Source of the DNA: Lumbricus rubellus
Lineage: Eukaryota; Annelida; Clitellata; Crassiclitellata; Lumbricidae
Assembly: GCA_945859605.1 (NCBI GenBank)
Contig: OX243825.1
Location: forward strand, 24,543,227-24,607,226
Direction: 5' to 3'
Length of the DNA stretch: 64,000 nt
Shown here: positions 3,001 to 46,300 of the stretch, one piece after another
Numbering within the stretch: position 1 is the stretch's first letter
How the letters are laid out: the number at the start of each line of letters is the position of its first letter
Made by a program: the position numbers and the translations under genes
Notes under the pieces: model-generated
The model's input: the letters and a program-made list of their open reading frames with translations, nothing else
Told to the model about the DNA's origin: nothing
The model's database searches: none

Positions 3001-3838
3001 TTACTGTCTTGTGTCTTATTTTAAGAGCATTTTGTTCTGTAGTATAGCGTCAGATTTTCTTTGGTCTTTTCTTGAAGATTGGGTGAAGAAAGATGTTTTA
3101 ACAGCAGTGATGCTTAGTATGCAATCTATAATTTAAGATGTACATTAATTCAAGAAATGCATGATTCATTGTATAATTAATAGAGTTTTGATTCAACTGA
3201 ACAGATATGAGTACACCAATGTGTTGGGGTGTCTTTGTATTCCATTGTTCTCTCTGCATTTTCTTTCTTTTGTACCCACAGCATGGTAGACACATTGTAC
3301 AACACAATACCATTCAACGTGACTTTTTGAGAAAAATATTTCATCACTGCACATGCACAGTTAGCAACACCGATAAAATGTTGGCAATGTCAAGAAATTT
3401 TGAATAACTATTAGCCAAGCTTTCCTTTTTGTTGGACCTTTGAATCCCTTTTTTAAATTATGATCTATGTGTGTAATTTTAGTTCTTACTGATGTTTAAA
3501 TATTCAATCAGACTTTGGCTATAAGTGATTGTTTTGTTAAATCTCCAGTGCGAACAATATTGGTGCAGTTGCTACTTATTCTTATTTTCTCTTTACATTT
3601 ACATTTAATTAGATTGGTCTTTGCTTGCGGAAACAGAGTTTGCCCATTTGTTTGTGTTTAGCTCAATGTCAACTGTCCAAAGAAGCGTTTGAAAATCAAA
3701 TGCTGCCTGTTATGTTTACAGAGTGACTTGTTCTTACTTGAACATTCTATATAATGGCGTGCATGTACGTTCCGTGTAAGATAAGAAGTCAGCTGATTTT
3801 TCGTTGACGAGTGCATTTTGTTGTTGTTGTTGTTGTAG
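1..3838. other. Non-coding region upstream of Sprouty
   Basis: No reading frame here looks like a known protein; open frames are short and unsupported. A pyrimidine-rich stretch (C/T with TCC and TTC runs) lies at about 2366-2420. Because the Sprouty coding exon starts right after a splice acceptor at 3838, an untranslated first exon and the promoter probably lie in this region or further upstream, but I could not locate them. Confidence 0.5.
3790..3838 (+). promoter_or_regulatory. Splice acceptor of a 5'UTR intron before the Sprouty coding exon
   Basis: A T-rich tract of repeated TTG units ends in GTAG immediately before 3839, ten bases ahead of the chosen ATG at 3849. This makes the upstream in-frame ATG (3804), whose codons would give a six-cysteine run, likely intronic. 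Introns in the 5'UTR with an intact coding exon are usual for Sprouty genes. The donor was not found. Confidence 0.6.
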
Positions 3839-3848
3839 TGACCAGCCA

Positions 3849-13477: not shown

Positions 13478-13660
13478 TAGGTGGGGTACCCGGAGTTGCT
13501 CAGGAAATTTGGGTTTTTTCCCCACCCCAGGTACAGGGATGAGGGCAGGGTAGTCCTGGTGAGTGGTGACACTCTCTCTATAAGGTTTGAGGTCAGCAAC
13601 TGTGAGACTGTTGGCATGCATTCTGGACATACATACATACATTCTTCTTTTCTAGATTAT
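13478..13660 (+). mobile_element. Truncated copy of the 'GTACCCGG' repeat family
   Basis: It starts TAGGTGGGGTACCCGG and ends GCATGCATTCTGGACATACA. The same start and end motifs bound the three copies in the centre of the giant element (27988-30190). Most of the middle is missing. The family is unclassified. Confidence 0.55.
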
Positions 13661-18273: not shown

Positions 18274-18536
<263 letters not shown>

Positions 18537-21078: not shown

Positions 21079-24000
21079 GTATGTTCCGTTCTTATATGTA
21101 TTAGTTTGTGTACACGTAGGCAGTGACGGTAGGCTATGTATCAGAATGTTGCATTCTCAGGTTGCCTTCAAGAATGCCAGCGTGACTTGGGCTCCGCACG
21201 GTCGACCCAGCTCTCTACATTGTTTCAATATAAAATATGCAGATAATTCCCGATAGTGGATCTAACATTTGTTTTACATTACATTTCGTGTATATCACTA
21301 TACTTTATTATTACTTCTGGTAAACACGAAGACTGAGTCACCGTACTCCAAACAATATGGCCACCGTAGATGCGTGCATAACAGAGCGGCGCGACATGCG
21401 GCCTAATATTTCCGCGAAAATTAAAGGACGCTTCAATTTCAGCAGAATGACTGCACTAAACCCTAAAACTAACCCTAACCGACCCTCACGGCGCCTAACC
21501 TGAGCCCTAACCGACCCTCACGCTTTGCATGTTGAGATACATGTTGCGATGTCGTCGACCGGTCGCGTTCTAATTTTACGGCATTCGTTGGCAGCCATAT
21601 TGTTTGGAGTACCTCCGTCAAGTTGGTTTGATATTCACGTTGGATATTCAGACATTCGGTATGGACAGCCGAAGGTAAAATACGTATTGAAATATCATCA
21701 TATAACCGTACATCTGCATAAGATATTTTTACCAAAGCACCACCATTGAACAGTTATTGACCTAAGCAATCAGAAAATAATCTAAGACTGATTTTATCAG
21801 GTGGGTAAGTGGGTCAAATGTGGGTCCAAACACGGGGAAACACCATTTTCACACATATTCTCACTATATGTGTGACATTAATTTTTCTTTTTTCAGTTTT
21901 ACATTTTCTATGATGAGTTATCTACCTAGGCAATCAGAAAATAATCTTAGAATGATTTTATCAGGTGGGTAAGTGGGTCAAATGTGGGTCCAAACACGGG
22001 GAAACACCATTTTCACACATATTCTCACTATATGTGTCACATTAATTTTTCTTTTTTCAGTTTTACATTTTCTATGATGAGTTATCTACCTAGGCAATCA
22101 GAAAATAATCTTAGAATGATTTTATCAGGTGGGTAAGTGGGTCAAATGTGGGTCCAAACACAAGGAAACACCAATTTCACATTTTCTCAATACATGTGTC
22201 ACATTAATTTTTTTAATTTTGAGTTTTACATTTTCTATGATGAGTTATCTACCCAGGGAATCAGAAAATAATCTTAGGATGATTTTATCAGGTGGGTAAG
22301 TGGGTCAAATGGGGGTCCAAACACGGGGAAACACCATTTTCACACATATTCTCACTATATGTGTCACATTAATTTTTTTTCTTTCAGTTTTACATTTTCT
22401 ATGATGAGTTATCTACCTAGGCAATCAGAAAAAAATCTTAGAATGATTTTATCAGGTGGGTAAGTGGGTCAAATGTGGGTCCAAACACGAGGAAACACCA
22501 TTTTCACACATTATTCTCACTATATGTGTGACATTAATTTTTCTTTTTTCAGTTTTACATTTTCTATGATGAGTTATCTACATAGGCAATCAGAAAATAA
22601 TCTTAGAATGATTTTATCAGGTGGGTAAGTGGGTCAAATGGGGGTCCAAACACGGGGAAACACCATTTTCACACATATTCTCACTATATGTGTGACATTA
22701 ATTTTTCTTTTTTCAGTTTTACATTTTCTATGATGAGTTATCTACCTAGGCAATCAGAAAATAATCTTAGAATGATTTTATCAGGTGGGTAAGTGGGTCA
22801 AATGTGGGTCCAAACACGGAGAACACCAATTCACATATTTTCTCAATACATGTGTCACATTAATTTTTTTAAATTTGAGTTTTACATTTTCTATGATGAG
22901 TTATCTACCCAGGGAATCAGAAAATAATCTTAGGATGATTTTATCAGGTGGGTAAGTGGGTCAAATGTGGGTCCAAACACGGGGAAACACCAATTCACAT
23001 ATTTTCTCAATACATGTGTCACATTATTTTTTTTATTTTTGAGTTTTACATTTTCTATGATGAGTTATCTACCCAGGGAATCAGAAAATAATCTTAGGAT
23101 GATTTTATCAGGTGGGTAAGTGGGTCAAATGTGGGTCCAAACACGGGGAAACACCAATTCACATATTTTCTCAATACATGTGTCACATTATTTTTTTTAT
23201 TTTTGAGTTTTACATTTTCTATGATGAGTTATCTACCTAGGGAATCGGAAAATAATCTTAGAATGATTTTATCAGGTGGGTAAGTGGGTCAAATGTGGAT
23301 CCAAACACGGGGAAACACCAATTCACATATTTTCTCAATACATGTGTCACATTAATTTTTTTAATTTTGAGTTTTACATTTTCTATGATGAGTTATCTAC
23401 CTAGGCAATCAGAAAATAATCTTAGAATGATTTTATCAGGTGGGTAAGTGGGTCAAATGGGGGTCCAAACACGGGGAAACACCATTTTCACACATATTCT
23501 CACTATATGTGTGACATTAATTTTTCTTTTTTCAGTTTTACATTTTCTATGATGAGTTATCTACAAAGGCAATCAGAAAATAATCTTAGAATGATTTTAT
23601 CAGGTGGGTAAGTGGGTCAAATGGGGGTCCAAACACGGGGAAACACCATTTTCACACATATTCTCACTATATGTGTCACATTAATTTTTCTTTTTTCAGT
23701 TTTACATTTTCTATGATGAGTTATCTACCTAGGCAATCAGAAAATAATCTTAGAATGATTTTATCAGGTGGGTAAGTGGGTCAAATGTGGGTCCAAACAC
23801 GGGGAACACCAATTCACATATTTTCTCAATACATGTGTCACATTAATTTTTTTAATTTTGAGTTTTACATTTTCTATGATGAGTTATCTACCCAGGGAAT
23901 CAGAAAATAATCTTAGGATGATTTTATCAGGTGGGTAAGTGGGTCAAATGTGGGTCCAAACACGGGGAAACACCAATTCACATATTTTCTCAATACATGT

Positions 24001-27000
24001 GTCACATTATTTTTTTTAATTTTCAGTTTTACATTTTCTATGATGAGTTATCTACCTAGGGAATCAGAAAATAATCTTAGAATGATTTTATCAGGTGGGT
24101 AAGTGGGTCAAATGTGGGTCCAAACACGGGGAAACACCATTTTCACACATATTCTCACTATATGTGTCACATTAATTTTTCTTTTTTCAGTTTTACATTT
24201 TCTATGATGAGTTATCTACCTAGGCAATCAGAAAATAATCTTAGAATGATTTTATCAGGTGGGTAAGTGGGTCAAATGGGTTCCAAACACGGGGAAACAC
24301 CATTTTCACACATATTCTCACTATATGTGTGACATTAATTTTTCTTTTTTCAGTTTTACATTTTCTATGATGAGTTATCTACAAAGGCAATAAGAAAATA
24401 ATCTTAGAATGATTTTATCAGGTGGGTAAGTGGGTCAAATGGGGGTCCAAACACGGGGAAACACCATTTTCACACATATTCTCACTATATGTGTCACATT
24501 AATTTTTTTTTCTTTCAGTTTTACATTTTCTATGATGAGTTATCTACCTAGGCAATCAGAAAATAATCTTAGAATGATTTTATCAGGTGGGTAAGTGGGT
24601 CAAATGTGGGTCCAAACACGAGGAAACACCATTTTCACACATTATTCTCACTATATGTGTGACATTAATTTTTCTTTTTTCAGTTTTACATTTTCTATGA
24701 TGAGTTATCTACATAGGCAATCAGAAAATAATCTTCGAATGATTTTATCAGGTGGGTAAGTGGGTCAAATGGGGGTCCAAACACGGGGAAACACCATTTT
24801 CACACATATTCTCACTATATGTGTGACATTAATTTTTCTTTTTTCAGTTTTACATTTTCTATGATGAGTTATCTACCTAGGCAATCAGAAAATATTCTTA
24901 GAATGATTTTATCAGGTGGGTAAGTGGGTCAAATGTGGGTCCAAACACGGAGAACACCAATTCACATATTTTCTCAATACATGTGTCACATTAATTTTTT
25001 TAAATTTGAGTTTTACATTTTCTATGATGAGTTATCTACCCAGGGAATCAGAAAATAATCTTAGGATGATTTTATCAGGTGGGTAAGTGGGTCAAATGTG
25101 GGTCCAAACACGGGGAAACACCAATTCACATATTTTCTCAATACATGTGTCACATTAATTTTTTTATTTTTGAGTTTTACATTTTCTATGATGAGTTATC
25201 TACCTAGGGAATCGGAAAATAATCTTAGAATGATTTTATCAGGTGGGTAAGTGGGTCAAATGTGGGTCCAAACACGGGGAAACACCAATTCACATATTTT
25301 CTCAATACATGTGTCACATTAATTTTTTTAATTTTGAGTTTTACATTTTCTATGATGAGTTATCTACCTAGGAAATCTGAAAATAATCTTAGAATGATTT
25401 TATCAGGTGGGTAAGTGGGTCAAATGGGTTCCAAACACGGGGAAACACCATTTTCACACATATTCTCACTATATGTGTGACATTAATTTTTCTTTTTTCA
25501 GTTTTACATTTTCTATGATGAGTTATCTACAAAGGCAATAAGAAAATAATCTTAGAATGATTTTATCAGGTGGGTAAGTGGGTCAAATGGGGGTCCAAAC
25601 ACGGGGAAACACCATTTTCACACATATTCTCACTATATGTGTCACATTAATTTTTCTTTTTTCAGTTTTACATTTTCTATGATGAGTTATCTACCTAGGC
25701 AATCAGAAAATAATCTTAGAATGATTTTATCAGGTGGGTAAGTGGGTCAAATGTGGGTCCAAACACGGGGAACACCAATTCACATATTTTCTCAATACAT
25801 GTGTCACATTAATTTTTTTAATTTTGAGTTTTACATTTTCTATGATGAGTTATCTACCCAGGGAATCAGAAAATAATCTTAGGATGATTTTATCAGGTGG
25901 GTAAGTGGGTCAAATGTGGGTCCAAACACGAGGAAACACCAATTCACATATTTTCTCAATACATGTGTCACATTAATTTTTTTAATTTTGAGTTTTACAT
26001 TTTCTATGATGAGTTATCTACCTAGGGAATCAGAAAATAATCTTAGAATGATTTTATCAGGTGGGTAAGTGGGTCAAATGCGGATCCAAACACGGGGAAC
26101 TCACTATTTAATTTGTTTATAATTTTTGCCCTTCAATGACCTAATATGCCCTCTTGAACTATTGCTTTTTTCTGGTGTGAATGCATGAACGAACATATGA
26201 ATTTGCTTCAAAAATTAAGGCCTGTTGTATATGGATAATATTTTCCTACAAGTTGAAATATAAATACATAAAATGCATTCAAACATGAACGCAAGCATTT
26301 ATTTTATTCGTGCGCATATATATGTCAAAACTACTAGCCCATTATATACAGGGTGGGCCAAAAAAAAAGACCCCCCTAGGTTTTTTGCCAATATTTTGGC
26401 CAGAAGTAAGAATTTTTAAATGAAATTTTGCAGTCTTAAAGGCAATTCATATTTACACATGATGGCCAGATTTCATATAAATATATCAAACAGAACAAAA
26501 GTTATAGCAGTTTTAGTGAGGCCACCCCCCGTTTTTTGACGATTCAAAAACGAAAAGCAAAATATTTAGGTTTTTTGCCAATATCTTCACCAAAATTAAG
26601 AATTTCGAAATGAAATTTTACAGACTTATAGGCAATTCATATTTACACATTAGGGCCGAGTTTCATCAAAATATTTCAAACACAACACAAGTTATACCAC
26701 TTTTAGCGGGACCACCCACCATTTTTGACGATTCAAAAACGAAACGCAACAAAAAAGTAGCAAAAACCCGATTTTATTAAGTCTCGTCTCAAATAACTGT
26801 TGTTAAATGAACTTGGTAGTGCTTCACAACTTGTGTTCAATATGCCCACCACCAGTGCCAACACTTCTTTTGAGTCTCTTTGCAAAGTTCTTGATGGACC
26901 TGTTGATTAATCTGACAGATTCCTTATTTACCGATTTGATGTCATCTTGCTAAGTGACTTCTCAGTGACGTGCAGCTACGCTGGTACCCTGTTTATTTTT

Positions 27001-27809
27001 AAGTAGTAATAATAATGATCACCTGGCAATATGAAGGCTATTTGAAAACAATTATTTGATATGGGACTTAATAAAATCGTGTTTTTGCTACTTTTTTGCT
27101 GTGTTACGTCTTTGAAACGTCAAAAAATGGGGGGTGACCTCACTAAAAGTGATATAACTTTTGTTCTGTTTCAAATATTTTGATGAAATCTGGCCGTCAT
27201 GTGTGAATATGAATTGTCTTTAAGCGTGTGAAATTTCATTTCGATATTCTTACTTCTGGCCAAGATATTGGCCAGAATAATTGAGTTGATTTTTTGTTAC
27301 TTTTTGTTGCGTCGGGTTTTTGAATCGTCAAAAAACGGTGGGTGGCTTCACTAAAATTGGTATAACTTTTGTTGTGTTTGAAATATTTTAATGAAATCTG
27401 GCCATGTGGTGTAAATATGAATTGTCTTCAAGACTGTAAAATTTCATTTCGGAATTCTTACTTTTGGTCAAGATATTGGCAAAAATCTTAGGGGGGTCTT
27501 TTTTTTGGCCCACCCTGTACATGCATTCATTCCAACAGGTGTACAGTATATTGCATATTTAGTTATTTACATACATGTTTTGGTATTATTACGCTTTAAG
27601 GTACATGTGATGAGACACAGTGGTGTAGCGGTAAGTTCAGTGCCTTGTGACCGAAGGGTCGTAAGTTCGTATCTTCCTTAAGCCATTGCGTAGTGACCTG
27701 AGACATGTTGTTCCTTCACAATTGTTTGTGAGGAAGGCAACGGGAAACCACCTAATTCATCTCATCCCTAGAGGCGTAAAGCCGATGAACCTGCCTTCAG
27801 GCAGAGAAC

Positions 27810-27870
<61 letters not shown>

Positions 27871-30800
27871 TTTTATCATCATCATCATCAAGGTACATGA
27901 GTTTATTGGCTCTTCTTCTATACCCACACATATACATGTATAATTGTATATATTATATATACACAATACAGACGTACATATTTATCTACTCTAGCTGAAG
28001 CACCCGGCGTTTCCCGGGAATTTTAGGATTCACCCCGCTCCCAGCCAATTTCCTACTTCTCTACCCCACGACTCCACCCGCACTCCTACTTCTCACCCCA
28101 CCCTCTTTTACACACCGCCCCACCCGACCTTACGACACCCCGCATACCCTACTACACCACACCACACCCCACCTCGATTTCCGCCGGTACTCGACCCGCA
28201 AAATTTGGGCTTTTCTGAAAATTTTTCCACCCCAACTTCCACCCTACCACACCCACCATACTCGGACGTTCACCGGTACGCCATTAATGGACTTTGGGTT
28301 TTCGGAAAAAATTTCCTCCCTACCCCACCCATAATCCACCCTCCCTATCCCACCACACCCCACCACACTGCGACCTCCACCGGTACGCGACCCATAAAAT
28401 TTGGGTTTCAGTACAATTTCCCTCACTCCTCACCCCACCCCTCTACCCCACCCGGCCCTTGCAGGCCGAGGTGTGTTGGGTGGAGGCGAGCCCACCCCAC
28501 TCTTAACCTCACCCCATGATCACCATACTCCGACCTCTACTGGTACGCCACCCGTGAAATTTAGATTTTCTGAAAAATTTCTTTCCCCAACCCCACCTCC
28601 ACCCCACCCCCCACGCCACCTTACCTTTCCCACCACACTCTGACCTCCACCGTGACGCCACCTGTGAAATTTGAGTTTTCGGGAAAATTTATCCCCCACC
28701 CCACCCGGAGCCTGCAGGCCGAGGTGTGTGTTGGGTGTAGGAAGTTGGCCTGTGTAAAAATCTGTCTAGCTGTAGGCCTAAGGTTTAACATGAATAAGTG
28801 TGAAACTAAGCATGGAAATGGCTGAAAAGTATCGATAATGATATTTTTCCCCCCAATCCTGACCCCCATGGTGTCAGAAATTCGCGAACCCCTACACTGG
28901 GTGCCCAATGCCGAGACGGACACAGTAGTGAAGGTTTGGAGTTAAAAGGTGCAAAACTGTGAGTGTGCATTCTGGACAGATGATATATATATATATATAT
29001 ATACATCCTTTCTTATAGATATAGATATATAAGAAGGAAGGTGTGTACATATGTTTGTCCAGAATGGTACAGAATGCACGCCCACAGTTTAGCAGCTACG
29101 GATCTGAAACTTGGCACCTAGAACAAGGGGCCATCAGGACCACCCAGTGGAGGGGTCGGCGAATCTCTACCACCGTGGGACCAATGTGGGGCGAAAAACC
29201 TCATTTTCGCTGTCAATTTCCATTCAGCTGCCATAGTTTCACAGTTTTGCACCTGAAACGTTGTGCACAGCTAAACAGCTAGAGTGCTACAGGCTGAGTA
29301 CAGAGGCCACACACCTGGAACGAAGTGAGGGTTTGGAAGTAAGGAATTGGGTTCAATTGGCCGGTAGCGGTACTCCAGCTAGTGCGAATCCTAAATTTCC
29401 AGGGAAACGCCGGGTACCCCAGCTAGTATATACTAGCTGGGGTATCCAGCATTACCCTGGAAATTTAGTACCCCAACTAATATAGACTAACTGGGGTACC
29501 CGGCGTTTCCCTGGAAATTTAGGATTCGCACTGCTTTCGGCCAATTCCGAACTTCCAAACCCTCACTTCATCCCATCCTCGCCTCTACTCCCAACCCCCA
29601 CTTAATTTTTCCATCACACTCACCCACCGACCTCCCTAACCCGTCGGCCCAACTTGCCTCCACGTATCTGGGGTACTCTGCCTCGCCCGATAAATTTTCT
29701 TTTTGGCCCACTCAAACCCGCCCCAACCGCCCGATCACCCACCTAACCCAACCCCAACCTCATCACACTACGATCTCCTAACCGCTACGCCTCTTGTGAA
29801 CTTTCCTTTTACCGGCAAATTGCTTTTCTTTCCTCCCACGTCCCCATCAATACCCTGCCATCACCCGGCCGAGGTGTGTTGGGTGGGGGCAAGGTGGCCC
29901 CTGTAGCACTATAGCTGTCTAGCTTCAACGTATCAGGTGCAAAACTGTGAAACTATGGTTAAAAAAATGGAAATTTAGAGTGAAAATTAGGTTTTTCGCC
30001 TCACCTTGGCCCCACGGTGGTAGAGATTCGCCGACCCATCCTCTGGGTGGTCATGGTGGCCCTTTGTTCCAGGTGCCAAGTTTCAGATCAGTAGCTGCCA
30101 AACTGTGGGTGCGCAACTGCGCATTCTGTACCATTCTCGACAAACATATGTACACACATCCTTTCTTATATATAGATATATAGGCTATGTACATATGTAT
30201 TGTGTTTATATAATAGATGCAATTATACATATACAGGGTGGGCCAAAACAAAGTAATCCCCTACCTTGTTTTGCTCATATCTTGGCCAGAATTAAGGATT
30301 TCGAAATGAAATTTTACCGGCTTAAAGACAATTCATATTAACACATGATGGCCAGATTTCTTCAAAATATTTCAAGCAGAACAAAAGTTATGTCACTTTT
30401 ATTGAGGCCACCCCCCATTTTTTGACGATTCAAAGACGTTACGCAGCAAAAAGTAGCAAAAACACAATTTTATTAAGTCTCATCTCAAATATTTGTTATC
30501 CAAATAGCCTTGATATTGCCAGCTGATCATTATTATTACTATTTAAAAAAGAAACAGGGTACCAGCGTAGCTACACGTAACTGAGAAGACACTTAGCAAG
30601 ATGACAATCAAATTGGTAAATAAGGAATCTGTCAGGTTAATCAACAGGTCCATCAAGAACTTTGCAAAGAGACTCAAAACAAGTCTTGGCAATGGTGGTG
30701 GGCACATTGAACACAAGTTGTGAAGCACTATCAAGTTCATTTGACAACAGTTATTTGACATGAGACTTAATAAAATCGTGTTTTGTTACTTTTTGATCCG

Positions 30801-31282
30801 TTTCGGTCGTTTTCATCAAAAACGGTGGGTGACCTCACTAAAAGTGGTATAACTTGTGTTGTGGTTGAAATGTTTTTATGAAATTTGGCCTTCCTGTGTA
30901 GAAATGAATTGTCTTTAAGCCTGTAAAATTTCATTTTGAAATTCTTACTTCCGGCCATGATATTAGCAAAATAACTAAATTTATTTGCGTTTCGTTTTTG
31001 GAGCGTCAAAAAACGGTGGGTGGCCTCACTAAAAGTGGTATAACTTTTGTTCTGTTTCACATATGGCAATGAAATTTGGCTTTTGTACGTAGATATGAAT
31101 TACCTTCAAGCCCATAAAACTGGATTTGAAAAATTCCTATTTTTAGCCAAGATATTGACAAAAAACCGTAAAGGATTACTTTTTTTGGCCCACCCTGTAT
31201 ATGTCTGGGTATAGAAGAAGAGCCAATAAACTCTTCTTCTATGCTTCTAACAATAAACTTCTGTGTATGTTTGCATGTACCT

Positions 31283-31346
<64 letters not shown>

Positions 31347-31348
31347 AC

Positions 31349-31393
<45 letters not shown>

Positions 31394-34300
31394 GTTCTCT
31401 GCCTGAAGGCAGGTTCATTGGCTTTACGCCTCTAGGGATGAGATGAATTAGGTGGTTTCCCGTTGCCTTCCTCACAAACAATTGTGAAGGAGCAACATGT
31501 CTCAGGTCACTACGCAATGGCTTAAGGAAGACACGAACTTACGACCCTTCGGTCACAAGGCACTGAACTTACCGCCACACCACTGCGTCTCATCACATGT
31601 ACCTTAAAGCGTAATAATACCAAAACATGCATGTAAATAACTAAATATGCAATATACTGTATGCCTGTTGGAATGAATGCATGTATATAATGGGCTAGTA
31701 GTTTTGACATATATATGCGCACGAAAAAAATAAATGCTTGCGTTCATGATTGAATGCATTTTATGTATTTATATTTCAACTTGTAGGAAAAAAATTATAA
31801 TCCATATACACAGGCCTTAATTTTTGAAGCAAATTCATATGTTCGTTCATGCATTCACACCAGAAAAAAGCAATAGCTCAAGAGGGCATATTAGGTCATT
31901 GAAGGGCAAAAATTATAAACAAATTAAATAGTGAGTTCCCCGTGTTTGGATCCACATTTGACCCACTTACCCACCTGATAAAATCATTCTAAGATTATTT
32001 TCTGATTGCCTAGGTAGATAACTCATCATAGAAAATGTAAAACTGAAAAAAGAAAAATTAATGTCACACATATAGTGAGAATATGTGTGAAAATGGTGTT
32101 TCCCCGTGTTTGGACCCACATTTGACCCACTTACCCACCCGATAAAATCATTCTAAGATTATTTTCTGATTCCCTAGGTAGATAACTCATCATAGAAAAT
32201 GTAAAACTCAAAATTAAAAAAATTAATGTGACACATGTATTGAGAAAATATGTGAATTGGTGTTTCCCCGTGTTTGGACCCACATTTGACCCACTTACCC
32301 ACCTGATAAAATCATCCTAAGATTATTTTCTGATTCCCTGGGTAGATAACTCATCATAGAAAATGTAAAACTCAAAATTAAAAAAATTAATGTGACACAT
32401 GTATTGAGAAAATATGTGAATTGGTGTTCCCCGTGTTTGGACCCACATTTGACCCACTTACCCACCTGATAAAATCATTCTAAGATTATTTTCTGATTGC
32501 CTAGGTAGATAACTCATCATAGAAAATGTAAAACTGAAAAAAGAAAAATTAATGTCACACATATAGTGAGAATATGTGTGAAAATGGTGTTTCCCCGTGT
32601 TTGAACCCCCATTTGACCCACTTACCCACCTGATAAAATCATTCTAAGATTATTTTCTGATTGCCTAGGTAGATAACTCATCATAGAAAATGTAAAACTG
32701 AAAAAAGAAAAATTAATGTCACACATATAGTGAGAATATGTGTGAAAATGGTGTTTCCCCGTGTTTGGACCCACATTTGACCCACTTACCCACCTGATAA
32801 AATCATTCTAAGATTATTTTCTGATTGCCTAGGTAGATAACTCATCATAGAAAATGTAAAACTCAAAATTAAAAAAATTAACGTGACACATGTATTGAGA
32901 AAATATGTGAATTGGTGTTTCCCCGTGTTTGGACCCACATTTGACCCACTTACCCACCTGATAAAATCATTCTAAGATTATTTTCTGATTCCCTAGGTAG
33001 ATAACTCATCATAGAAAATGTAAAACTGAAAAGAAAAGAAATTAATGTAACACATATAGTGAGAATATGTGTGAAAATGGTGTTTCCCCGTGTTTGAACC
33101 CCCATTTGACCCACTTACCCACCTGATAAAATCATTCTAAGATTATTTTCTGATTGCCTAGGTAGATAACTCATCATAGAAAATGTAAAACTGAAAAACG
33201 AAAAATTAATGTCACACATATAGTGAGAATATGTGTGAAAATGGTGTTTCCCCGTGTTTGGACCCACATTTGACCCACTTACCCACCTGATAAAATCATT
33301 CTAAGATTATTTTCTGATTGCCTAGGTAGATAACTCATCATAGAAAATGTAAAACTCAAAATTAAAAAAATTAACGTGACACATGTATTGAGAAAATATA
33401 TGAATTGGTGTTTCCCCGTGTTTGGACCCACATTTGACCCACTTACCCACCTGATAAAATCATTCTAAGATTATTTTCTGATTCCCTGGGTAGATAACTC
33501 ATCATAGAAAATGTAAAACTCAAAATTAAAAAAATTAATGTGACACATGTATTGAGAAAATATGTGAATTGGTGTTCCCCGTGTTTGGACCCACATTTGA
33601 CCCACTTACCCACCTGATAAAATCATTCTAAGATTATTTTCTGATTGCCTAGGTAGATAACTCATCATAGAAAATGTAAAACTGAAAAAAGAAAAATTAA
33701 TGTCACACATATAGTGAGAATATGTGTGAAAATGGTGTTTCCCCGTGTTTGAACCCCCATTTGACCCACTTACCCACCTGATAAAATCATTCTAAGATTA
33801 TTTTCTGATTGCCTAGGTAGATAACTCATCATAGAAAATGTAAAACTGAAAAAAGAAAAATTAATGTCACACATATAGTGAGAATATGTGTGAAAATGGT
33901 GTTTCCCCGTGTTTGGACCCACATTTGACCCGCTTACCCACCTGATAAAATCATTCTAAGATTATTTTCTGATTCCCTAGGTAGATAACTCATCATAGAA
34001 AATGTAAAACTCAAAATTAAAAAAAATAATGTGACACATGTATTGAGAAAATATGTGAATTGGTGTTTCCCCGTGTTTGGACCCACATTTGACCCACTTA
34101 CCCACCTGATAAAATCATCCTAAGATTATTTTCTGATTCCCTGGGTAGATAACTCATCATAGAAAATGTAAAACTCAAATTAAAAAAAATTAATGTGACA
34201 CATGTATTGAGAAAATATGTGAATTGGTGTTCCCCGTGTTTGGACCCACATTTGACCCACTTACCCACCTGATAAAATCATTGTAAGATTATTTTCTGAT

Positions 34301-37300
34301 TGCCTAGGTAGATAACTCATCATAGAAAATGTAAAACTGAAAATTAAAAAAATTAATGTCACACATATAGTGAGAATATGTGTGAAATTGGTGTTTCCCC
34401 GTGTTTGGACCCCCATTTGACCCACTCACCCACCTGATAAAATCATTCTAAGATTATTTTCTGATTGCCTAGGTAGATAACTCATCATAGAAAATGTAAA
34501 ACTGAAAAAAGAAAAATTAATGTCACACATATAGTGAGAATATGTGTGAAAATGGTGTTTCCCCGTGTTTGGACCCACATTTGACCCACTTACCCACCTG
34601 ATAAAATCATTCTAAGATTATTTTCTGATTCCCTGGGTAGATAACTCATCATAGAAAATGTAAAACTCAAAATTAAAAAAATTAACGTGACACATGTATT
34701 GAGAAAATATATGAATTGGTGTTTCCCCGTGTTTGGACCCACATTTGACCCACTTACCCACCTGATAAAATCATTCTAAGATTATTTTCTGATTCCCTGG
34801 GTAGATAACTCATCATAGAAAATGTAAAACTCAAAATTAAAAAAATTAATGTGACACATATAGTGAGAATATGTGTGAAAATGGTGTTTCCCCGTGTTTG
34901 AACCCCCATTTGACCCACTTACCCACCTGATAAAATCATTCTAAGATTACTTTCTGATTGCCTAGGTAGATAACTCATCATAGAAAATGTAAAACTGAAA
35001 AAAGAAAAATTAATGTCACACATATAGTGAGAATATGTGTGAAAATGGTGTTTCCCCGTGTTTGGACCCACATTTGACCCACTTACCCACCTGATAAAAT
35101 CATTCTAAGATTATTTTCTGATTCCCTAGGTAGATAACTCATCATAGAAAATGTAAAACTAAAAACTCAAAATTAAAAAAATTAACATGACACATGTATT
35201 GAGAAAATATGTGAATTGGTGTTTCCCCGTGTTTGGACCCACATTTGACCCACTTACCCACCTGATAAAATCATTCTAAGATTATTTTCTGATTGCCTAG
35301 GTAGATAACTCATCATAGAAAATGTAAAACTGAAAAGAAAAGAAATTAATGTGACACATATAGTGAGAATATGTGTGAAAATGGTGTTTCCCCGTGTTTG
35401 AACCCCCATTTGACCCACTTACCCACCTGATAAAATCATTCTAAGATTATTTTCTGATTGCCTAGGTAGATAACTCATCATAGAAAATGTAAAACTGAAA
35501 AAAGAAAAATTAATGTCACACATATAGTGAGAATATGTGTGAAAATGGTGTTTCCGTGTTTGGACCCACATTTGACCCACTTACCCACCTGATAAAATCA
35601 TTCTAAGATTATTTTCTGATTGCCTAGGTAGATAACTCATCATAGAAAATGTAAAACTGAAAAACGAAAAATTAATGTCACACATATAGTGAGAATATGT
35701 GTGAAAATGGTGTTTCCCCGTGTTTGGACCCACATTTGACCCACTTACCCACCTGATAAAATCATTCTAAGATTATTTTCTGATTCCCTAGGTAGATAAC
35801 TCATCATAGAAAATGTAAAACTCAAAATTAAAAAAATTAACGTGACACATATAGTGAGAATATGTGTGAAAATGGTGTTTCCCCGTGTTTGAACCCCCAT
35901 TTGACCCACTTACCCACCTGATAAAATCATTCTAAGATTATTTTCTGATTGCCTAGGTAGATAACTCATCATAGAAAATGTAAAACTGAAAAAAGAAAAA
36001 TTAATGTCACACATATAGTGAGAATATGTGTGAAAATGGTGTTTCCCCGTGTTTGAACCCCCATTTGACCCACTTACCCACCTGATAAAATCATTCTAAG
36101 ATTATTTTCTGATTGCCTAGGTAGATAACTCATCATAGAAAATGTAAAACTGAAAAAAGAAAAATTAATGTCACACATATAGTGAGAATATGTGTGAAAA
36201 TGGTGTTTCCCCGTGTTTGGACCCACATTTGACCCACTTACCCACCTGATAAAATCATTCTAAGATTATTTTCTGATTGCCTAGGTAGATAACTCATCAT
36301 AGAAAATGTAAAACTCAAAATTAAAAAAATTAACGTGACACATGTATTGAGAAAATATGTGAATTGGTGTTTCCCCGTGTTTGGACCCACATTTGACCCA
36401 CTTACCCACCTGATAAAATCATTCTAAGATTATTTTCTGATTCCCTAGGTAGATAACTCATCATAGAAAATGTAAAACTGAAAAGAAAAGAAATTAATGT
36501 AACACATATAGTGAGAATATGTGTGAAAATGGTGTTTCCCCGTGTTTGAACCCCCATTTGACCCACTTACCCACCTGATAAAATCATTCTAAGATTATTT
36601 TCTGATTGCCTAGGTAGATAACTCATCATAGAAAATGTAAAACTGAAAAACGAAAAATTAATGTCACACATATAGTGAGAATATGTGTGAAAATGGTGTT
36701 TCCCCGTGTTTGGACCCACATTTGACCCACTTACCCACCTGATAAAATCATTCTAAGATTATTTTCTGATTCCCTAGGTAGATAACTCATCATAGAAAAT
36801 GTAAAACTCAAAATTAAAAAAATTAACGTGACACATATAGTGAGAATATGTGTGAAAATGGTGTTTCCCCGTGTTTGAACCCCCATTTGACCCACTTACC
36901 CACCTGATAAAATCATTCTAAGATTATTTTCTGATTGCCTAGGTAGATAACTCATCATAGAAAATGTAAAACTGAAAAAAGAAAAATTAATGTCACACAT
37001 ATAGTGAGAATATGTGTGAAAATGGTGTTTCCCCGTGTTTGGACCCACATTTGACCCGCTTACCCACCTGATAAAATCATTCTAAGATTATTTTCTGATT
37101 CCCTAGGTAGATAACTCATCATAGAAAATGTAAAACTCAAAATTAAAAAAAATAATGTGACACATGTATTGAGAAAATATGTGAATTGGTGTTTCCCCGT
37201 GTTTGGACCCACATTTGACCCACTTACCCACCTGATAAAATCATCCTAAGATTATTTTCTGATTCCCTGGGTAGATAACTCATCATAGAAAATGTAAAAC

Positions 37301-40300
37301 TCAAATTTAAAAAAATTAATGTGACACATGTATTGAGAAAATATGTGAATTGGTGTTCCCCGTGTTTGGACCCACATTTGACCCACTTACCCACCTGATA
37401 AAATCATTGTAAGATTATTTTCTGATTGCCTAGGTAGATAACTCATCATAGAAAATGTAAAACTGAAAATTAAAAAAATTAATGTCACACATATAGTGAG
37501 AATATGTGTGAAATTGGTGTTTCCCCGTGTTTGGACCCCCATTTGACCCACTCACCCACCTGATAAAATCATTCTAAGATTATTTTCTGATTGCCTAGGT
37601 AGATAACTCATCATAGAAAATGTAAAACTGAAAAAAGAAAAATTAATGTCACACATATAGTGAGAATATGTGTGAAAATGGTGTTTCCCCGTGTTTGGAC
37701 CCACATTTGACCCACTTACCCACCTGATAAAATCATTCTAAGATTATTTTCTGATTCCCTGGGTAGATAACTCATCATAGAAAATGTAAAACTCAAAATT
37801 AAAAAAATTAACGTGACACATGTATTGAGAAAATATATGAATTGGTGTTTCCCCGTGTTTGGACCCACATTTGACCCACTTACCCACCTGATAAAATCAT
37901 TCTAAGATTATTTTCTGATTCCCTGGGTAGATAACTCATCATAGAAAATGTAAAACTCAAAATTAAAAAAATTAATGTGACACATATAGTGAGAATATGT
38001 GTGAAAATGGTGTTTCCCCGTGTTTGAACCCCCATTTGACCCACTTACCCACCTGATAAAATCATTCTAAGATTACTTTCTGATTGCCTAGGTAGATAAC
38101 TCATCATAGAAAATGTAAAACTGAAAAAAGAAAAATTAATGTCACACATATAGTGAGAATATGTGTGAAAATGGTGTTTCCCCGTGTTTGGACCCACATT
38201 TGACCCACTTACCCACCTGATAAAATCATTCTAAGATTATTTTCTGATTCCCTAGGTAGATAACTCATCATAGAAAATGTAAAACTAAAAACTCAAAATT
38301 AAAAAAATTAACATGACACATGTATTGAGAAAATATGTGAATTGGTGTTTCCCCGTGTTTGGACCCACATTTGACCCACTTACCCACCTGATAAAATCAT
38401 TCTAAGATTATTTTCTGATTGCCTAGGTAGATAACTCATCATAGAAAATGTAAAACTGAAAAGAAAAGAAATTAATGTGACACATATAGTGAGAATATGT
38501 GTGAAAATGGTGTTTCCCCGTGTTTGAACCCCCATTTGACCCACTTACCCACCTGATAAAATCATTCTAAGATTATTTTCTGATTGCCTAGGTAGATAAC
38601 TCATCATAGAAAATGTAAAACTGAAAAAAGAAAAATTAATGTCACACATATAGTGAGAATATGTGTGAAAATGGTGTTTCCGTGTTTGGACCCACATTTG
38701 ACCCACTTACCCACCTGATAAAATCATTCTAAGATTATTTTCTGATTGCCTAGGTAGATAACTCATCATAGAAAATGTAAAACTGAAAAACGAAAAATTA
38801 ATGTCACACATATAGTGAGAATATGTGTGAAAATGGTGTTTCCCCGTGTTTGGACCCACATTTGACCCACTTACCCACCTGATAAAATCATTCTAAGATT
38901 ATTTTCTGATTCCCTAGGTAGATAACTCATCATAGAAAATGTAAAACTCAAAATTAAAAAAATTAACGTGACACATATAGTGAGAATATGTGTGAAAATG
39001 GTGTTTCCCCGTGTTTGAACCCCCATTTGACCCACTTACCCACCTGATAAAATCATTCTAAGATTATTTTCTGATTGCCTAGGTAGATAACTCATCATAG
39101 AAAATGTAAAACTGAAAAAAGAAAAATTAATGTCACACATATAGTGAGAATATGTGTGAAAATGGTGTTTCCCCGTGTTTGAACCCCCATTTGACCCACT
39201 TACCCACCTGATAAAATCATTCTAAGATTATTTTCTGATTGCCTAGGTAGATAACTCATCATAGAAAATGTAAAACTGAAAAAAGAAAAATTAATGTCAC
39301 ACATATAGTGAGAATATGTGTGAAAATGGTGTTTCCCCGTGTTTGGACCCACATTTGACCCACTTACCCACCTGATAAAATCATTCTAAGATTATTTTCT
39401 GATTGCCTAGGTAGATAACTCATCATAGAAAATGTAAAACTCAAAATTAAAAAAATTAACGTGACACATGTATTGAGAAAATATGTGAATTGGTGTTTCC
39501 CCGTGTTTGGACCCACATTTGACCCACTTACCCACCTGATAAAATCATTCTAAGATTATTTTCTGATTCCCTAGGTAGATAACTCATCATAGAAAATGTA
39601 AAACTGAAAAGAAAAGAAATTAATGTAACACATATAGTGAGAATATGTGTGAAAATGGTGTTTCCCCGTGTTTGAACCCCCATTTGACCCACTTACCCAC
39701 CTGATAAAATCATTCTAAGATTATTTTCTGATTGCCTAGGTAGATAACTCATCATAGAAAATGTAAAACTGAAAAACGAAAAATTAATGTCACACATATA
39801 GTGAGAATATGTGTGAAAATGGTGTTTCCCCGTGTTTGGACCCACATTTGACCCACTTACCCACCTGATAAAATCATTCTAAGATTATTTTCTGATTCCC
39901 TAGGTAGATAACTCATCATAGAAAATGTAAAACTCAAAATTAAAAAAATTAACGTGACACATATAGTGAGAATATGTGTGAAAATGGTGTTTCCCCGTGT
40001 TTGAACCCCCATTTGACCCACTTACCCACCTGATAAAATCATTCTAAGATTATTTTCTGATTGCCTAGGTAGATAACTCATCATAGAAAATGTAAAACTG
40101 AAAAAAGAAAAATTAATGTCACACATATAGTGAGAATATGTGTGAAAATGGTGTTTCCCCGTGTTTGAACCCCCATTTGACCCACTTACCCACCTGATAA
40201 AATCATTCTAAGATTATTTTCTGATTGCCTAGGTAGATAACTCATCATAGAAAATGTAAAACTGAAAAAAGAAAAATTAATGTCACACATATAGTGAGAA

Positions 40301-43300
40301 TATGTGTGAAAATGGTGTTTCCCCGTGTTTGGACCCACATTTGACCCACTTACCCACCTGATAAAATCATTCTAAGATTATTTTCTGATTGCCTAGGTAG
40401 ATAACTCATCATAGAAAATGTAAAACTCAAAATTAAAAAAATTAACGTGACACATGTATTGAGAAAATATGTGAATTGGTGTTTCCCCGTGTTTGGACCC
40501 ACATTTGACCCACTTACCCACCTGATAAAATCATTCTAAGATTATTTTCTGATTCCCTAGGTAGATAACTCATCATAGAAAATGTAAAACTGAAAAGAAA
40601 AGAAATTAATGTAACACATATAGTGAGAATATGTGTGAAAATGGTGTTTCCCCGTGTTTGAACCCCCATTTGACCCACTTACCCACCTGATAAAATCATT
40701 CTAAGATTATTTTCTGATTGCCTAGGTAGATAACTCATCATAGAAAATGTAAAACTGAAAAACGAAAAATTAATGTCACACATATAGTGAGAATATGTGT
40801 GAAAATGGTGTTTCCCCGTGTTTGGACCCACATTTGACCCACTTACCCACCTGATAAAATCATTCTAAGATTATTTTCTGATTCCCTAGGTAGATAACTC
40901 ATCATAGAAAATGTAAAACTCAAAATTAAAAAAATTAACGTGACACATATAGTGAGAATATGTGTGAAAATGGTGTTTCCCCGTGTTTGAACCCCCATTT
41001 GACCCACTTACCCACCTGATAAAATCATTCTAAGATTATTTTCTGATTGCCTAGGTAGATAACTCATCATAGAAAATGTAAAACTGAAAAAAGAAAAATT
41101 AATGTCACACATATAGTGAGAATATGTGTGAAAATGGTGTTTCCCCGTGTTTGAACCCCCATTTGACCCACTTACCCACCTGATAAAATCATTCTAAGAT
41201 TATTTTCTGATTGCCTAGGTAGATAACTCATCATAGAAAATGTAAAACTGAAAAAAGAAAAATTAATGTCACACATATAGTGAGAATATGTGTGAAAATG
41301 GTGTTTCCCCGTGTTTGGACCCACATTTGACCCACTTACCCACCTGATAAAATCATTCTAAGATTATTTTCTGATTCCCTAGGTAGATAACTCATCATAG
41401 AAAATGTAAAACTCAAAATTAAAAAAATTAACGTGACACATGTATTGAGAAAATATGTGAATTGGTGTTTCCCCGTGTTTGGACCCACATTTGACCCACT
41501 TACCCACCTGATAAAATCATTCTAAGATTATTTTCTGATTGCCTAGGTAGATAACTCATCATAGAAAATGTAAAACTGAAAGAAAAAAATTAATGTGACA
41601 CATATAGTGAGAATATGTGTGAAAATGGTGTTTCCCCGTGTTTGGACCCACATTTGACCCACTTACCCACCTGATAAAATCATTCTAAGATTATTTTCTG
41701 ATTGCCTAGGTAGATAACTCATCATAGAAAATGTAAAACTGAAAAAAGAAAAATTAATGTCACACATATAGTGAGAATATGTGTGAAAATGGTGTTTCCC
41801 CGTGTTTGGACCCACATTTGACCCACTTACCCACCTGATAAAATCAGTCTTAGATTATTTTCTGATTGCTTAGGTCAATAACTGTTCAATGGTGGTGCTT
41901 TGGTAAAAATATCTTATGCAGATGTACGGTTATATGATGATTTTTCAATACGTATTTTACCTTCGGCTGTCCATACCGAAACTCTGAATATCCAACGTGA
42001 ATATCAAACCAACTTGACGGAGGTGTTTGGAGTACGGTGACTCAGTATTCGTGTTTACCTTACTTCTATGCATGTGTTATATAATTTCTTAATTGTCAAT
42101 GTCCCATTGTGCGTTTGCAAATGGATTAGTAAAGGTTATACTTACTTACTTTTTAACAATCTGAATAGGGCGATAGAAGAATTTACTTACTGTCTGTGGG
42201 GCCCTGATACGGCCTTCGACTTCCGTGCGCGATCTCGGCGTCCTGTTGGAGTCAGATCTGTCCATGAGGCGCCATATCGCCTGGACAGTAGGTTGTTGCT
42301 TCCGGCAGCTCCGTCTCATCAGGAGCTGCATCAAGTCCTTGCCCTTTGAGGCCGCGAGGGCGGCCGTCGCCGCTTTCGTCACTTCCAAGGTGGATCGCTG
42401 CAACAGCTTGCTTGCCGGCGCGCCTGCGTGCCTCTTGGACGGACTCCAGTCAGTGCTTAATGCCGCGGCGAGGCTAGTCTGCAACAGGAGAAAATACGAC
42501 CACGTCACGCCGCTCCTCCGTGATGTCCTCCACTGGCTGCCTGTTCCATCTCGCATCGAATTCAAGCTCTGTTTGCTCGTGTTCAAATCGCTTCACGGAG
42601 CTGCACCCGAGTACCTGCGCGATTGCTGCATAGAGACTCATTCCTCCGCGGCTGGGCTTCGGCTCAGATCATCCGAGAGGTCTGATTTGCGTGTGCGGAG
42701 AATGAGAACGTGCTTCGGCGATCGTGCCTTCTCGGTCGCTGGTCCTCGTTGCTGGAACAGTCTTCCTCTCGCTATCCGATCAGCAGGCTCAGTGGACTCT
42801 TTTAAAGCCAGGCTAAAATCACACTTGTTCGCTAGGGCTTATCCGGTGTAGCTGGTTTTCTGTAAGGCGCCCTTGTAACGGCATGGCTGTGTTACTGCGC
42901 CATATAAATCGTCGTAATTATTATTATTATTATTATTACATGCATCATTAAATGAGCCAAAAATAATAATAGCTTAATGCTTAATGCCGCTGAAACGTGC
43001 ACAATGTTTTTCTCCAGAAGGAGTCTGAAAAGTGATAGGCCTGCGACCCTTGTGCTCATTCCAGGAGCCAAGCGAGTGAAGTCCATGAAGATCATGAGCG
43101 TAATTCTAAGATTGGATTTCTGGATGAGGTGGTTTTCGTATCCAGCTGTTCGTCTCTACATGAGCTTTTAGTCCTCCATTCACATGAACTCAACTCACTT
43201 CAGTGATGACATCACTATTGTGGCATTCACCGCAATATGTCTATGTATTTTCTGCAGGGGTCAGACTTTGTCAGTACAGCAGGATATGATGCCCTCAAAA

Positions 43301-46300
43301 AGCGAATCAGAGAAGGAAAACAGACATGCCTAGCATTTGAACAATTTCTTCGATTGCGGTAAAAGCAATTTCTTTGTTGTTTTCATGACATTTGTAGATT
43401 TCATACTATTTTTTTAAATTTTATTTTATTTATTTCTCCAGATGTATAGTGCCCTTTCAAGCTCTCTACTCAGAGACGCTCCTGACTACAGCGCAGACAC
43501 TGCATCAGAGTTTCATGCCGATGAGCATGGATATTATATTGTGATGAACAAAGAAACAAATTGAAATGACAAAAGTGCGGAAAAGTCGTATGGCCGTGCA
43601 ATATTTTATTTATTATATAAAACTAGGATTTTATGCACTTGTTAATTTTAAGAACTAAATATAGAAAGGCATAGCTCATAAGCTTTGTGTAATTACCCTG
43701 CAACAGTTGCTGGCATCTGGTCCCTGGGCGTTTGCCCCCCCCCCCTCTGCCCCTCCTTTTGGCAGGTCTGGATGTAGAAAACTTGCCATCTCTCTTGATA
43801 ACAGGATTATTTTCTTCATGAATGACTACGTTCATAAGTCCTCTATTTTACTAGCAGTCAACAGTGATGCATGTCAAGAGAAAGAACTTTTGTTCTTGAG
43901 TTTTTTCTCTTATAATATCCCTTTGAAGAAAATCAGTTTCACACGGTCAAGTGGTCATACATCATGCAAGGATTGACTTGACCTCGGACCTTCAGAACTC
44001 CTTGACGCACTTTAATGAACGCTGTCTGTCTGTGCATCACGCATTCCATCACTTCTGTGTGTCACATAGAATGAACATTGTATAACAACGTAAATATTCT
44101 GCCATGGTGTATGTTTGGAATTGAATCTCTCTTTGTATGCATGTTGAAACGAGAAATTATTTGGCACATTTTAAGAACCTCACATTTGTGCTATACATTA
44201 GCAAGAAATTCAGCCATGTCATTTTAGCAAAGAAGCGCCAAAGTTTTCTTCGGTCACTGGCATACCTGTGCAAGGCCCCACCAGCTTGGAGCAGCTTAAA
44301 GAATTCGTGATATGACTGTAGCCCTGGCCACACCATGAAGCACGGTCTGAGACTGAAAAGGACCATGGGGTCTAAGGAGCCCAAAGGCATAGAGCGAGCT
44401 GATGCAAGTGTCAATATGCTGAGAGCTGCAGAGATCCTTGGTTATGGTGACACCCAGCACAACCATGGAGTCAATTTTGTCCATGTGTGGGGTAGGAGAG
44501 GCAGACTCACACATGACCGACATGTGAAATATCATCTACCTTGAAATTATCTTCCTTTAAAGTTCTTCTCAGTGATGCTATTAACCCTGTAGCAAAATTT
44601 TAAAAAACTAAAGGCAACTGGGAAACCAATGCAGGTCATATTAAGGTGTTAATGTTGCTTCATTTAAGCGTGTCTGCAGGCTTTAATTTTGTTATCTGCC
44701 CAAGGTAATTTTTTCTTTCTCTATGTTTGATTCTTCTGCAAAAACTTTTCAGTAGCATTAGACATGACATTTCTTGTCTGTGACATTTTAATTAGGAGTG
44801 TCTACTAGACGCGACTGGGTAACAAAGGCAGCTCATCGCTAAAGTGTTAATGGATTCGTAGAACATGATGTATTAATGACCAGATGTTTACGTTTCGTAT
44901 GACCAGGATGTAACTTGTGTCACACGAAAAATAGGTTTACAGAGCAGGATGTCATTGGCCAGAAATTCTGATTTTGTTACAGCTCGATTTCAAACCAATT
45001 AACGGCTGATAAGGTGATTTCAAGTAATTTGCACAACGTATTTTGCTGTATTACGTAGTATTACATGTATATTCTATTCTGCTATTCTCGATTACTGTTT
45101 TTGCATAATTAATGTAAATTGCATTCCGTTTCTTTAAGTACTGTGACTTCTTATCAGCAGGATAGCTATGCTAGGTGCATATATAACCCATACATACATG
45201 TACATGACACCTCATTAGTATAATTGTTCTGTTGTGTGATGGCATGCTTACTCCCTTTTTTGGAGACGACTTCACTATGATGTCTGCGTGTACAGGGTGG
45301 GCCATAAAAAGTACCCCCTAAGGTTTTTGCAAATATCTTGGCCAGAAGTAAGATTTTTTAAATAAAATTTTACAGGCTTAAAGGCAATTCATATCTACAT
45401 TTAAATGGCCAAATTTCACTGAAACAATTTCAAGCAGAACAATAGTTGTACCACTTTTAGTGAGACCACCCTCCGTTTTGTTACGATTCAAAAACATAAT
45501 GCAAAAAATGTAGCATAAATGCGATTTTATCAAGTCATGTCTCAAATAACTGTTATCAAATGAACTTGATATTGCCAGATAATCATTAATATTATTATTT
45601 AGAAAAGAAACAGGGTGCCAGCGTAGCTGCACATCCCTGTGAAGTCACTTAGCAGGATGACAATCAAGTTGGTAAACAAGGAATCAGTCAGATTCACAAC
45701 TTTGCTAATAAAGCAATGAAATTCAAATTTCTAAAAAATGAGTATGTCCAAGGTGTCAATGACAGACAAAATGCGTATTCAGACATATCTTGAGCAAGAT
45801 CCTGGAGATATACGGCTATGAGCAACGTTTACTCTGATCAACAGTGAGTGCGCAAAGGTTAATAGTTAAGCTGAGAGTTAAGAGTTTTGCCATGAATGAA
45901 AGGAGGTCGGCTCAAGATTTAGCTCTGGAACACATCAACAAGACCATCAAGAACTTTACAGAGATACTCAGAGCAAGTGTGCATGGTCACTGGTGGTGGA
46001 CACATTGAACACAAGTTGTGAAGCACTATCAAGTTCATTTGATAACAATTATTTGAAACGTGACCTAATAAAATTGCTTTTTTGATACTTTTCGTTGCGT
46101 TATGTTTTTGAATCATCAAAAAAACAGTGATTGGTCTCACTTAAAGTGATATAACTTTTGTTGTTTGAACTATTTCAGTGAAATTTGGCCAGAATATGTA
46201 AATATGAATTGCCTTTAAGCCTGTAAAATTTACAGAGATGACTCTGTGAGATGAAAATGTTGTTGAAGAATGTGCCAGAGGCGGAAAGAATTGCTGGCTA

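Follow-up and report, generated by a model that had tools for sequence, protein, structure and literature searches.

Does the large inverted structure in the middle of a stretch of Lumbricus rubellus DNA represent one giant transposon, or more than one insertion? The stretch analysed, hereafter the window, comprises 64,000 nt of assembly GCA_945859605.1 (contig OX243825.1, forward strand 24,543,227–24,607,226), and the original prediction described in it a single 20.7-kb foldback element with satellite arms and a perfect 8-bp target duplication. The parts of this description are present: inverted outer ends with perfect TTACTTCT repeats (21311–21318 and 42060–42067), arms that match segment by segment, and about 14 kb of a ~164-bp satellite, whose two arrays of 26.5 and 60.5 units run in opposite orientation and total 14,296 bp. 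In the outer arms 221 of 225 columns agree, an inserted left-side segment being left out; the inner arms have 663 identical and 16 mismatched columns, the rest being gaps, with one insertion left out. What was not upheld is the union of these parts into one element. The window holds two nested insertions: the outer 318 bp are a miniature inverted-repeat transposable element (MITE), and a giant element of 20,414 bp (21611–42024), with a 9-bp duplication of its own, entered it later.

The nesting was established within the window's own assembly (787 Mb, 368 contigs), in which the window lies on contig C18; below, C-names (such as C1, C15, C18 and C20) denote contigs and L-names loci of this genome. 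The left 292 bp and the right 26 bp of the outer structure join into 318 bp with outer inverted ends GGTAAACACGAA, the inverted ends being 43 bp long. From 1806 first-look candidates 40 were scored, and all 40, the window's own place included, are 99–100% identical to the window's left part. The 318-bp span recurs in all seven other copies read, with an exact 8-bp duplication in five (missing in L029 and L036); short size, inverted ends, uniform length, high copy number and uniform duplication length are those of a MITE. Two intact copies printed across the insertion site show it empty, with GTTTGGAGT present once and followed by ACGGTG. Because intact MITE copies measure 318 bp and show this empty site, the 8-bp duplication TTACTTCT is the host MITE's and not the giant's, and the giant is the later insertion. 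In other copies of the giant's family, similarity ends at ACCTCCGTCAAGTTGG, without reaching GGTAAACACGAA. Two other assignments were rejected: the segment 21355–21610, which interrupts the symmetry of the arms and was at one point read as a MITE sitting in the left arm and excised, with a footprint, from the right, is the body of the host MITE, and GGGAAACACC within the satellite was set aside as a copy of the transposon end, that end being the MITE's. The locus also holds a trap for genome reading, as a perfect duplication together with a perfect inverted repeat may be those of a small host transposon.

The search for other copies, which had been proposed as a check, revealed a family. A first search with the right end gave 41 matches, many of them arranged as inverted pairs, and 40 of 176 candidates were scored. 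With the 28-bp end, allowing up to 3 mismatches, 30 forward and 35 reverse places were found genome-wide (control 0), and 42 of these 65 ends form 21 inverted pairs, 4.5–20.4 kb apart as counted from the list; 20 of them are additional to the window's and have the giant's true ends. The expected 8-bp duplications were confirmed for the MITE only; the giant's family makes 9-bp duplications, exact in 17 of the 21 pairs (12 of 16 copies and all 5 further pairs) and with at most one mismatch in 19. When left flanks were instead combined with the right flanks of other pairs, no exact match arose in 420 combinations, the best having 3 mismatches. The interiors of 19 pairs were read, in L067 and L069 up to a few hundred bases from the end, and the C1 and C3 pairs were covered at their ends; all 19 carry satellite units in both arms. 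The arrays range from 2 to 61 unit anchors per arm, and the window's copy is the largest of the family.

What lies between the arms varies greatly. The non-coding cores include one group made up of L009, L015, L018, L019, L021 and L067, another of L010 and L016, and a third of L012, L013, L014, L017, L023, L068 and L069, to which the window is more distantly related; L011 (C5:26976638–26982776) is nearly all arms, with 20 and 12 unit anchors around a core of 64 bp. The cores of two coding copies on C20 share 4–5% with the non-coding cores of L010, L012–L014, L016, L017 and L023, 14% with the window core (partly mariner-like repeats) and 1% with L011; no match to the cores of L009, L015, L018, L019 and L021 was obtained at E 1e-20. 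Because the cores fall into several groups, the terminal domain and satellite arms are the constant part of the family and the middle is exchangeable.

The window's giant element has long inverted arms with tandem repeats, as a foldback element does, and no long frame was found in its interior, the longest being 174 aa. The prediction of a giant, non-autonomous foldback DNA transposon consequently stands as regards its non-coding nature, its satellite arms and its family, and fails as regards the ends and duplication, which were the MITE's. The coordinates are collected in the table.

Table. Features of the nested insertions, in window coordinates (TRF, Tandem Repeats Finder)
Feature	Position	Strand	Remarks
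Host MITE, left 8-bp duplication TTACTTCT	21311..21318	+	Identical to 42060-42067
Host MITE, left 292 bp	21319..21610	+	Ends in the 9-bp target GTTTGGAGT
Giant element, left 9-bp target duplication GTTTGGAGT	21602..21610	+	Identical to 42025-42033
Giant element	21611..42024	.	20,414 bp, non-coding; ends ACCTCCGTCAAGTTGG, found also in 20 further inverted pairs
Left terminal domain, 141 bp	21611..21751	+	Array boundary by TRF; equal length in other copies
Left satellite array, 26.5 units of 164 bp	21752..26099	+	TRF and unit comparison
Left inner arm, first part	26100..26348	+	Inverted alignment to 31682-31935
Palindromic mariner-like element	26349..27517	.	TA on both sides; ends CAGGGTGGGCCAAAA; left arm only
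Left inner arm, second part, with TCA repeat	27518..27984	+	Inverted alignment to 31196-31685
Non-coding middle	27985..30185	.	Aligned to cores L010, L012, L013, L017 and L023
Second palindromic mariner-like element	30234..31197	.	TA-flanked; right arm only
Right inner arm	31198..31935	-	Inverted match to left inner arm
Right satellite array, 60.5 units of 164 bp	31936..41883	-	TRF
Right terminal domain, 141 bp	41884..42024	-	Inverted match to left terminal domain
Giant element, right 9-bp target duplication GTTTGGAGT	42025..42033	+	Identical to 21602-21610
Host MITE, right 26 bp	42034..42059	+	Completes 318 bp
Host MITE, right 8-bp duplication TTACTTCT	42060..42067	+	Identical to 21311-21318

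The two mariner-like insertions occupy different positions in the two arms, and other copies lack them there. Another palindromic mariner-like copy lies outside the giant at 45285–46231, with pieces 77–83% identical to those in the arms and a right end that is not clear. A TCA-repeat segment (27600–27890 and 31286–31600) is found in both inner arms and in the cores of other copies, and is possibly derived from a short interspersed nuclear element. The middle also contains Helitron-like 3' ends, a GC hairpin followed by CTAGT (29316–29575 and 27991), and a further one is seen outside, at 13475–13516 on the minus strand; this arrangement is what we take to be the Helitron 3'-end signature. Those in the centre were considered as late insertions, an idea rejected as the middle is shared with other non-coding copies.

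A coding relative with the same ends, also called for by the original prediction, was found in two C20 copies of 16.7 and 17.0 kb (L025+L026 and L027+L028), which carry the same gene. In L027/L028 the frame is open over 1117 aa, 1096 from the first ATG, and no second frame above 136 aa is present; in L025/L026 it is split by one TAA. The predicted protein has a PHD finger at residues 1038–1081 (Pfam PF00628, E 5.5e-6, above the cut-off), with two weaker Pfam matches on the same stretch, and the 44 PDB matches with E of at most 1 are all confined to residues 1019–1090 and are nearly all PHD fingers. Neither a Mutator-like element (MULE) family nor THAP appears among the Pfam matches up to E 1. 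Inspection by eye picked out the candidate motifs D425, D502, CxxH (549–552) and E738. A genome-wide protein search, in which all 29 candidates were scored, returned only the two close copies, the next being at most 40% identical. The residue-by-residue comparison with paralogous stretches of 27–38% identity covers L039–L043, L072 and L073, L044–L046 lying outside it: HFD (D425) and TDFS (D502) are kept in L039 and L040, CxxH in L039, E738 in L072 and L073, and DHW (H911), YDSL (D930), Q967 and CG (C974) in L041–L043. We read these residues as those of a putative DDE transposase followed by an Ulp1-like domain. L039 and L040 also contain tandem repeats (of 183 and 141 bp, respectively), which were rejected as satellites, as by eye they look like coding repeats.

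The satellite itself was followed through its core motif, which with up to 2 mismatches occurs at 745 places genome-wide (control 0). At least 687 of these lie in paired copies, namely 529 in the 16 copies, 100 in L067–L069 and 58 in the C1 and C3 pairs (28 and 30), and among the 100 places listed (C1, C2 and part of C3) all are within paired elements and none is free-standing. As the satellite is found almost only inside these copies, it has spread mainly by transposition, in agreement with the dispersal that had been proposed. Its placement within the arms is also regular: of 32 arms, 31 have their first unit anchor at offset 180 and the remaining one has it at 181, and the inward end of the array has one fixed phase in most arms, just beyond a conserved stretch, the exceptions being both arms of both coding copies, the left arm of L011 and the right arm of L017. 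Computed over 534 units, 343 of them distinct, the conserved box GGGTAAGTGGGTCAAATGTGGGTCCAAACA has a mean column identity of 0.99 versus ~0.88 in the worst 30 bp. Two other unit cuttings (482 and 485 units) agree, so that this conservation is not an artefact of the search anchor.

Sister copies at different sites reveal how the arrays behave. In their core of 2087, L010 and L016 show a single mismatch and 3 gap columns; they have identical right arrays of 7 units, while their left arrays count 13 and 27 units, the difference being an inserted block of 14. L013 and L014 (core of 3308, 2 mismatches, 14 gap columns) have arrays of 10/11 and 6/20, and L025 and L027 (21 mismatches in a core of 9093) of 20/24 and 17/29. 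As these sister copies have nearly identical cores but unequal arrays, the arrays change in length faster than the cores mutate. In two of these three close pairs the unit sequence also changes faster than the core: nearest units differ by 1.3% in L025/L027 and by 0.52% in L013/L014, the core values being 0.23% and 0.06%, respectively. In the right array of the window, 18 units are identical at a 19-unit offset.

The explanation that in our judgement very probably accounts for these observations is that of a MITE with a nested Rehavkus-type giant, whose satellite travels in its arms and whose arrays are resized. A 318-bp MITE inserted first, with an 8-bp target duplication, and a 20.4-kb non-coding element, probably of Rehavkus type, then entered near one MITE end, duplicating the 9 bp GTTTGGAGT. 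It is presumably moved in trans, by cut and paste, by the protein predicted from the C20 copies, which share ends and arms with the giant. The satellite is carried within the arms, where array length shifts by whole units, probably through unequal exchange or slippage in repair, at the jump or later, and the arms may serve as a multi-site platform, by analogy with the terminal inverted repeats (TIRs) of Galileo. A more specific version is offered tentatively, as a possibility that we would not favour over its negation: the 164-bp array would be a working module in which the box GGGTAAGTGGGTCAAATGTGGGTCCAAACA of each unit loads the transposase, and arrays would be resized by copying errors in the repair that accompanies jumping. 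If that is true, transposition of this family would generate and disperse satellite DNA and keep renewing it, and the cargo between the arms would be exchangeable.

Several observations weigh against this account. Among the 65 ends 23 have no partner, including three on C15 that lack satellite; the exact 9-bp duplication is missing in 4 of the 21 pairs, including L021, with an 8-bp repeat shifted by one base, and L017, in which three positions differ; 58 of the 745 satellite places are not located; and in L010/L016 nearest units differ by 0.05%, no more than the core, so that only their number differs. The C20 protein gave neither a transposase domain in Pfam nor any NCBIfam match, and its DDE reading, a candidate one, rests on motifs compared by eye. 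The family fits the Rehavkus type, which is Mutator-related, as set by described traits and not by protein sequence. This last point feeds a competing view, that the family is Mutator-like or another foldback family in which PHD finger and satellite arms were gained independently. It draws on the fact that Rehavkus is known here by description and not by protein comparison, and on the lack of a Pfam transposase match; however, a 9-bp duplication combined with a PHD finger and with satellite next to the end matches Rehavkus as characterized in a published survey (PMC6446971), and also the satellite-bearing inverted termini described for Rehavkus-1_TC (PMC10218199), and we regard the competing view as unlikely. 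Somewhat less likely still is that the satellite was first independent and then captured by the transposon, its spread by transposition being secondary. Between the 164-bp unit and the 141-bp terminal domain no similarity is detectable (376, 227, 440 and 494 of 500 shuffles reach the scores), and because the scores lie within those of the shuffles the unit is not obviously derived from that domain; the unlocated places point the same way. Against capture stand the concentration of the satellite in paired elements, the near-constant offset of the first unit with its mostly fixed inward phase, and the absence of free-standing places among those listed.

The remaining alternatives deny either the transposon or the nesting. 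Large palindromes are prone to errors in assembly, and a related cluster on C15 looks like an inverted segmental duplication: the terminal domains of L003, L004 and L005 (C15:32.52–32.65 Mb) are 95% like the window's, no satellite match was obtained at E 1e-10 in three end loci or in three end and seven inner stretches, and C15:32526095–32650567 was rejected as a 124-kb member of the family, its flanks being palindromic, that is, inverted copies of each other. An assembly error or a segmental duplication at the window is nevertheless very improbable, as its arms differ (4 of 225 outer columns and 16 inner mismatches), carry different insertions and unequal arrays, and end at 9-bp duplications, with 20 other pairs of the same design. 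To the single 20.7-kb foldback transposon with ends GGTAAACACGAA and an 8-bp duplication, which has in its favour the inverted outer ends and the perfect repeat around them, we assign next to no probability: the same ends lie 318 bp apart elsewhere as a MITE, the arms have their own ends and 9-bp duplications in 20 other pairs without MITE ends, and the intact MITE copies already refute it.

A second family of putative transposases (L042–L044 and L071; 38% identical in the C-terminal part) offers a parallel. In its paralogous copies L042–L044 the C-terminal coding stretch is followed by a tandem array of 186-bp units, which in C7 counts 13.6 units. A terminal stretch of this family was found at 12 places (control 0); eight are exact, and these form four inverted pairs around transposase matches (C2, C3, C7 and C16). 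Arrays in both arms were seen for C7 only, where the left end runs into a unit start, inverted. GGGGAGGT was rejected as the end of this family, since the inverted repeat continues outward and none of the four pairs has a 9-bp duplication at that point. No motif shared by the 164-bp and 186-bp satellites was found above shuffles. The finding suggests that this lineage may habitually form satellite arms.

The surroundings of the giant element were also described. A 506-aa frame at 3780–5300 (+) with a Sprouty domain (Pfam PF05210, E 5.5e-23) is likely a host gene, ~16 kb from the giant. A perfect tetranucleotide array, (TCTG)65, occupies 18276–18536. Adjoining the giant, a 224-aa frame (42177–42851, +) had no match in Pfam and is read, on our assumption, as the end of a non-LTR (long terminal repeat) reverse transcriptase. 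Rfam gave nothing for the window and ARAGORN (bacterial code) nothing either, with no tRNA; the viral_contigs and genome_contigs collections, which are not animal, gave no match. The host's mitochondrial COX1 reads well under TGA=W, AGR=S and ATA=M, and around it, on one strand, the order is nad3-S1-nad2-cox1-N-cox2-D-(atp8)-Y-G, in which names except COX1 are a reading of frames and a tRNA-Gln call within the nad3 frame was left out. Both the code and this order are presumably annelid-like.

The origin and spread of satellites is an old question, and an apparently complete system is now available in one assembly, comprising a coding copy with an open frame, non-coding relatives whose several cores are exchangeable, and sister copies that are nearly identical in the core but differ by up to 14 units in an array. 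With it, the resizing of satellites with transposition becomes testable by unit counts at matched sites.

Among known systems, the sea-urchin TU elements, to which the original prediction had likened this locus, have foldback arms with tandem repeats of 15 bp and 8-bp duplications. The giant's own duplication is 9 bp, GTTTGGAGT, and not 8, and its true ends, ACCTCCGTC, together with the 9-bp duplications of the family, point to the Rehavkus and Mutator-related elements rather than to TU. The 9 bp fall within the 8–11-bp target duplications of MULEs, whereas a recognisable MULE transposase domain is absent from the Pfam matches. In a survey of Mutator elements, Rehavkus, with Arthropoda and Annelida as the host range known in 2019, has 9-bp duplications, TIRs of 26–400 bp, one open reading frame, a PHD finger and a minisatellite (PMC6446971). 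The 9-bp duplication, PHD finger, tandem repeats beside the TIR and single frame are all found here, and the terminal domain is 141 bp, although with the satellite the arms are kilobases long. Rehavkus-1_TC of Tribolium castaneum even carries a 164-bp satellite, TCsat23, in its inverted termini (PMC10218199), a shared unit length that may be coincidence. That element is described as 9.5 kb with mostly five and eight units, while the family reported here spans 4.5–20.4 kb with 2 to 61 anchors per arm and, unlike it, consists mostly of non-coding copies with several unrelated cores.

Foldback elements of other kinds share parts of this design. Tetris of Drosophila virilis has a terminal domain, ~220-bp tandem repeats, an inner domain and 8–10-bp duplications, its repeats vary in number and feed a satellite (PMC4079207), and the idea that foldback repeats give rise to satellites is for this reason not new. 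Its TIRs reach 1,735 bp, no coding copy is reported for it, its repeats share 37 bp with the terminal domain, and its satellite also forms long free arrays (PMC4079207); here such similarity is absent, and no free arrays occur among the places listed. In Galileo, of the P superfamily, the TIRs are long and enclose tandem repeats whose number changes (PMC3573991), and footprinting together with a site search revealed that these repeats bind the THAP domain of its transposase (PMC3688188); in contrast to the 9-bp duplications and PHD finger found here, it has 7-bp duplications and a THAP transposase (PMC3573991). Tm1 of root-knot nematodes is related to Mutator, has both coding and non-coding members, makes mostly 9-bp duplications and carries tandem repeats in composite TIRs, but its repeats are of ~14 bp and its elements much smaller (PMC3169594). 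A limited literature search found no work joining annelid, foldback, transposon and satellite. Rehavkus and foldback elements that bear satellites are already known, and what is described here is a new and very large family of them, which adds its size, a coding partner beside many non-coding copies, and sister pairs.

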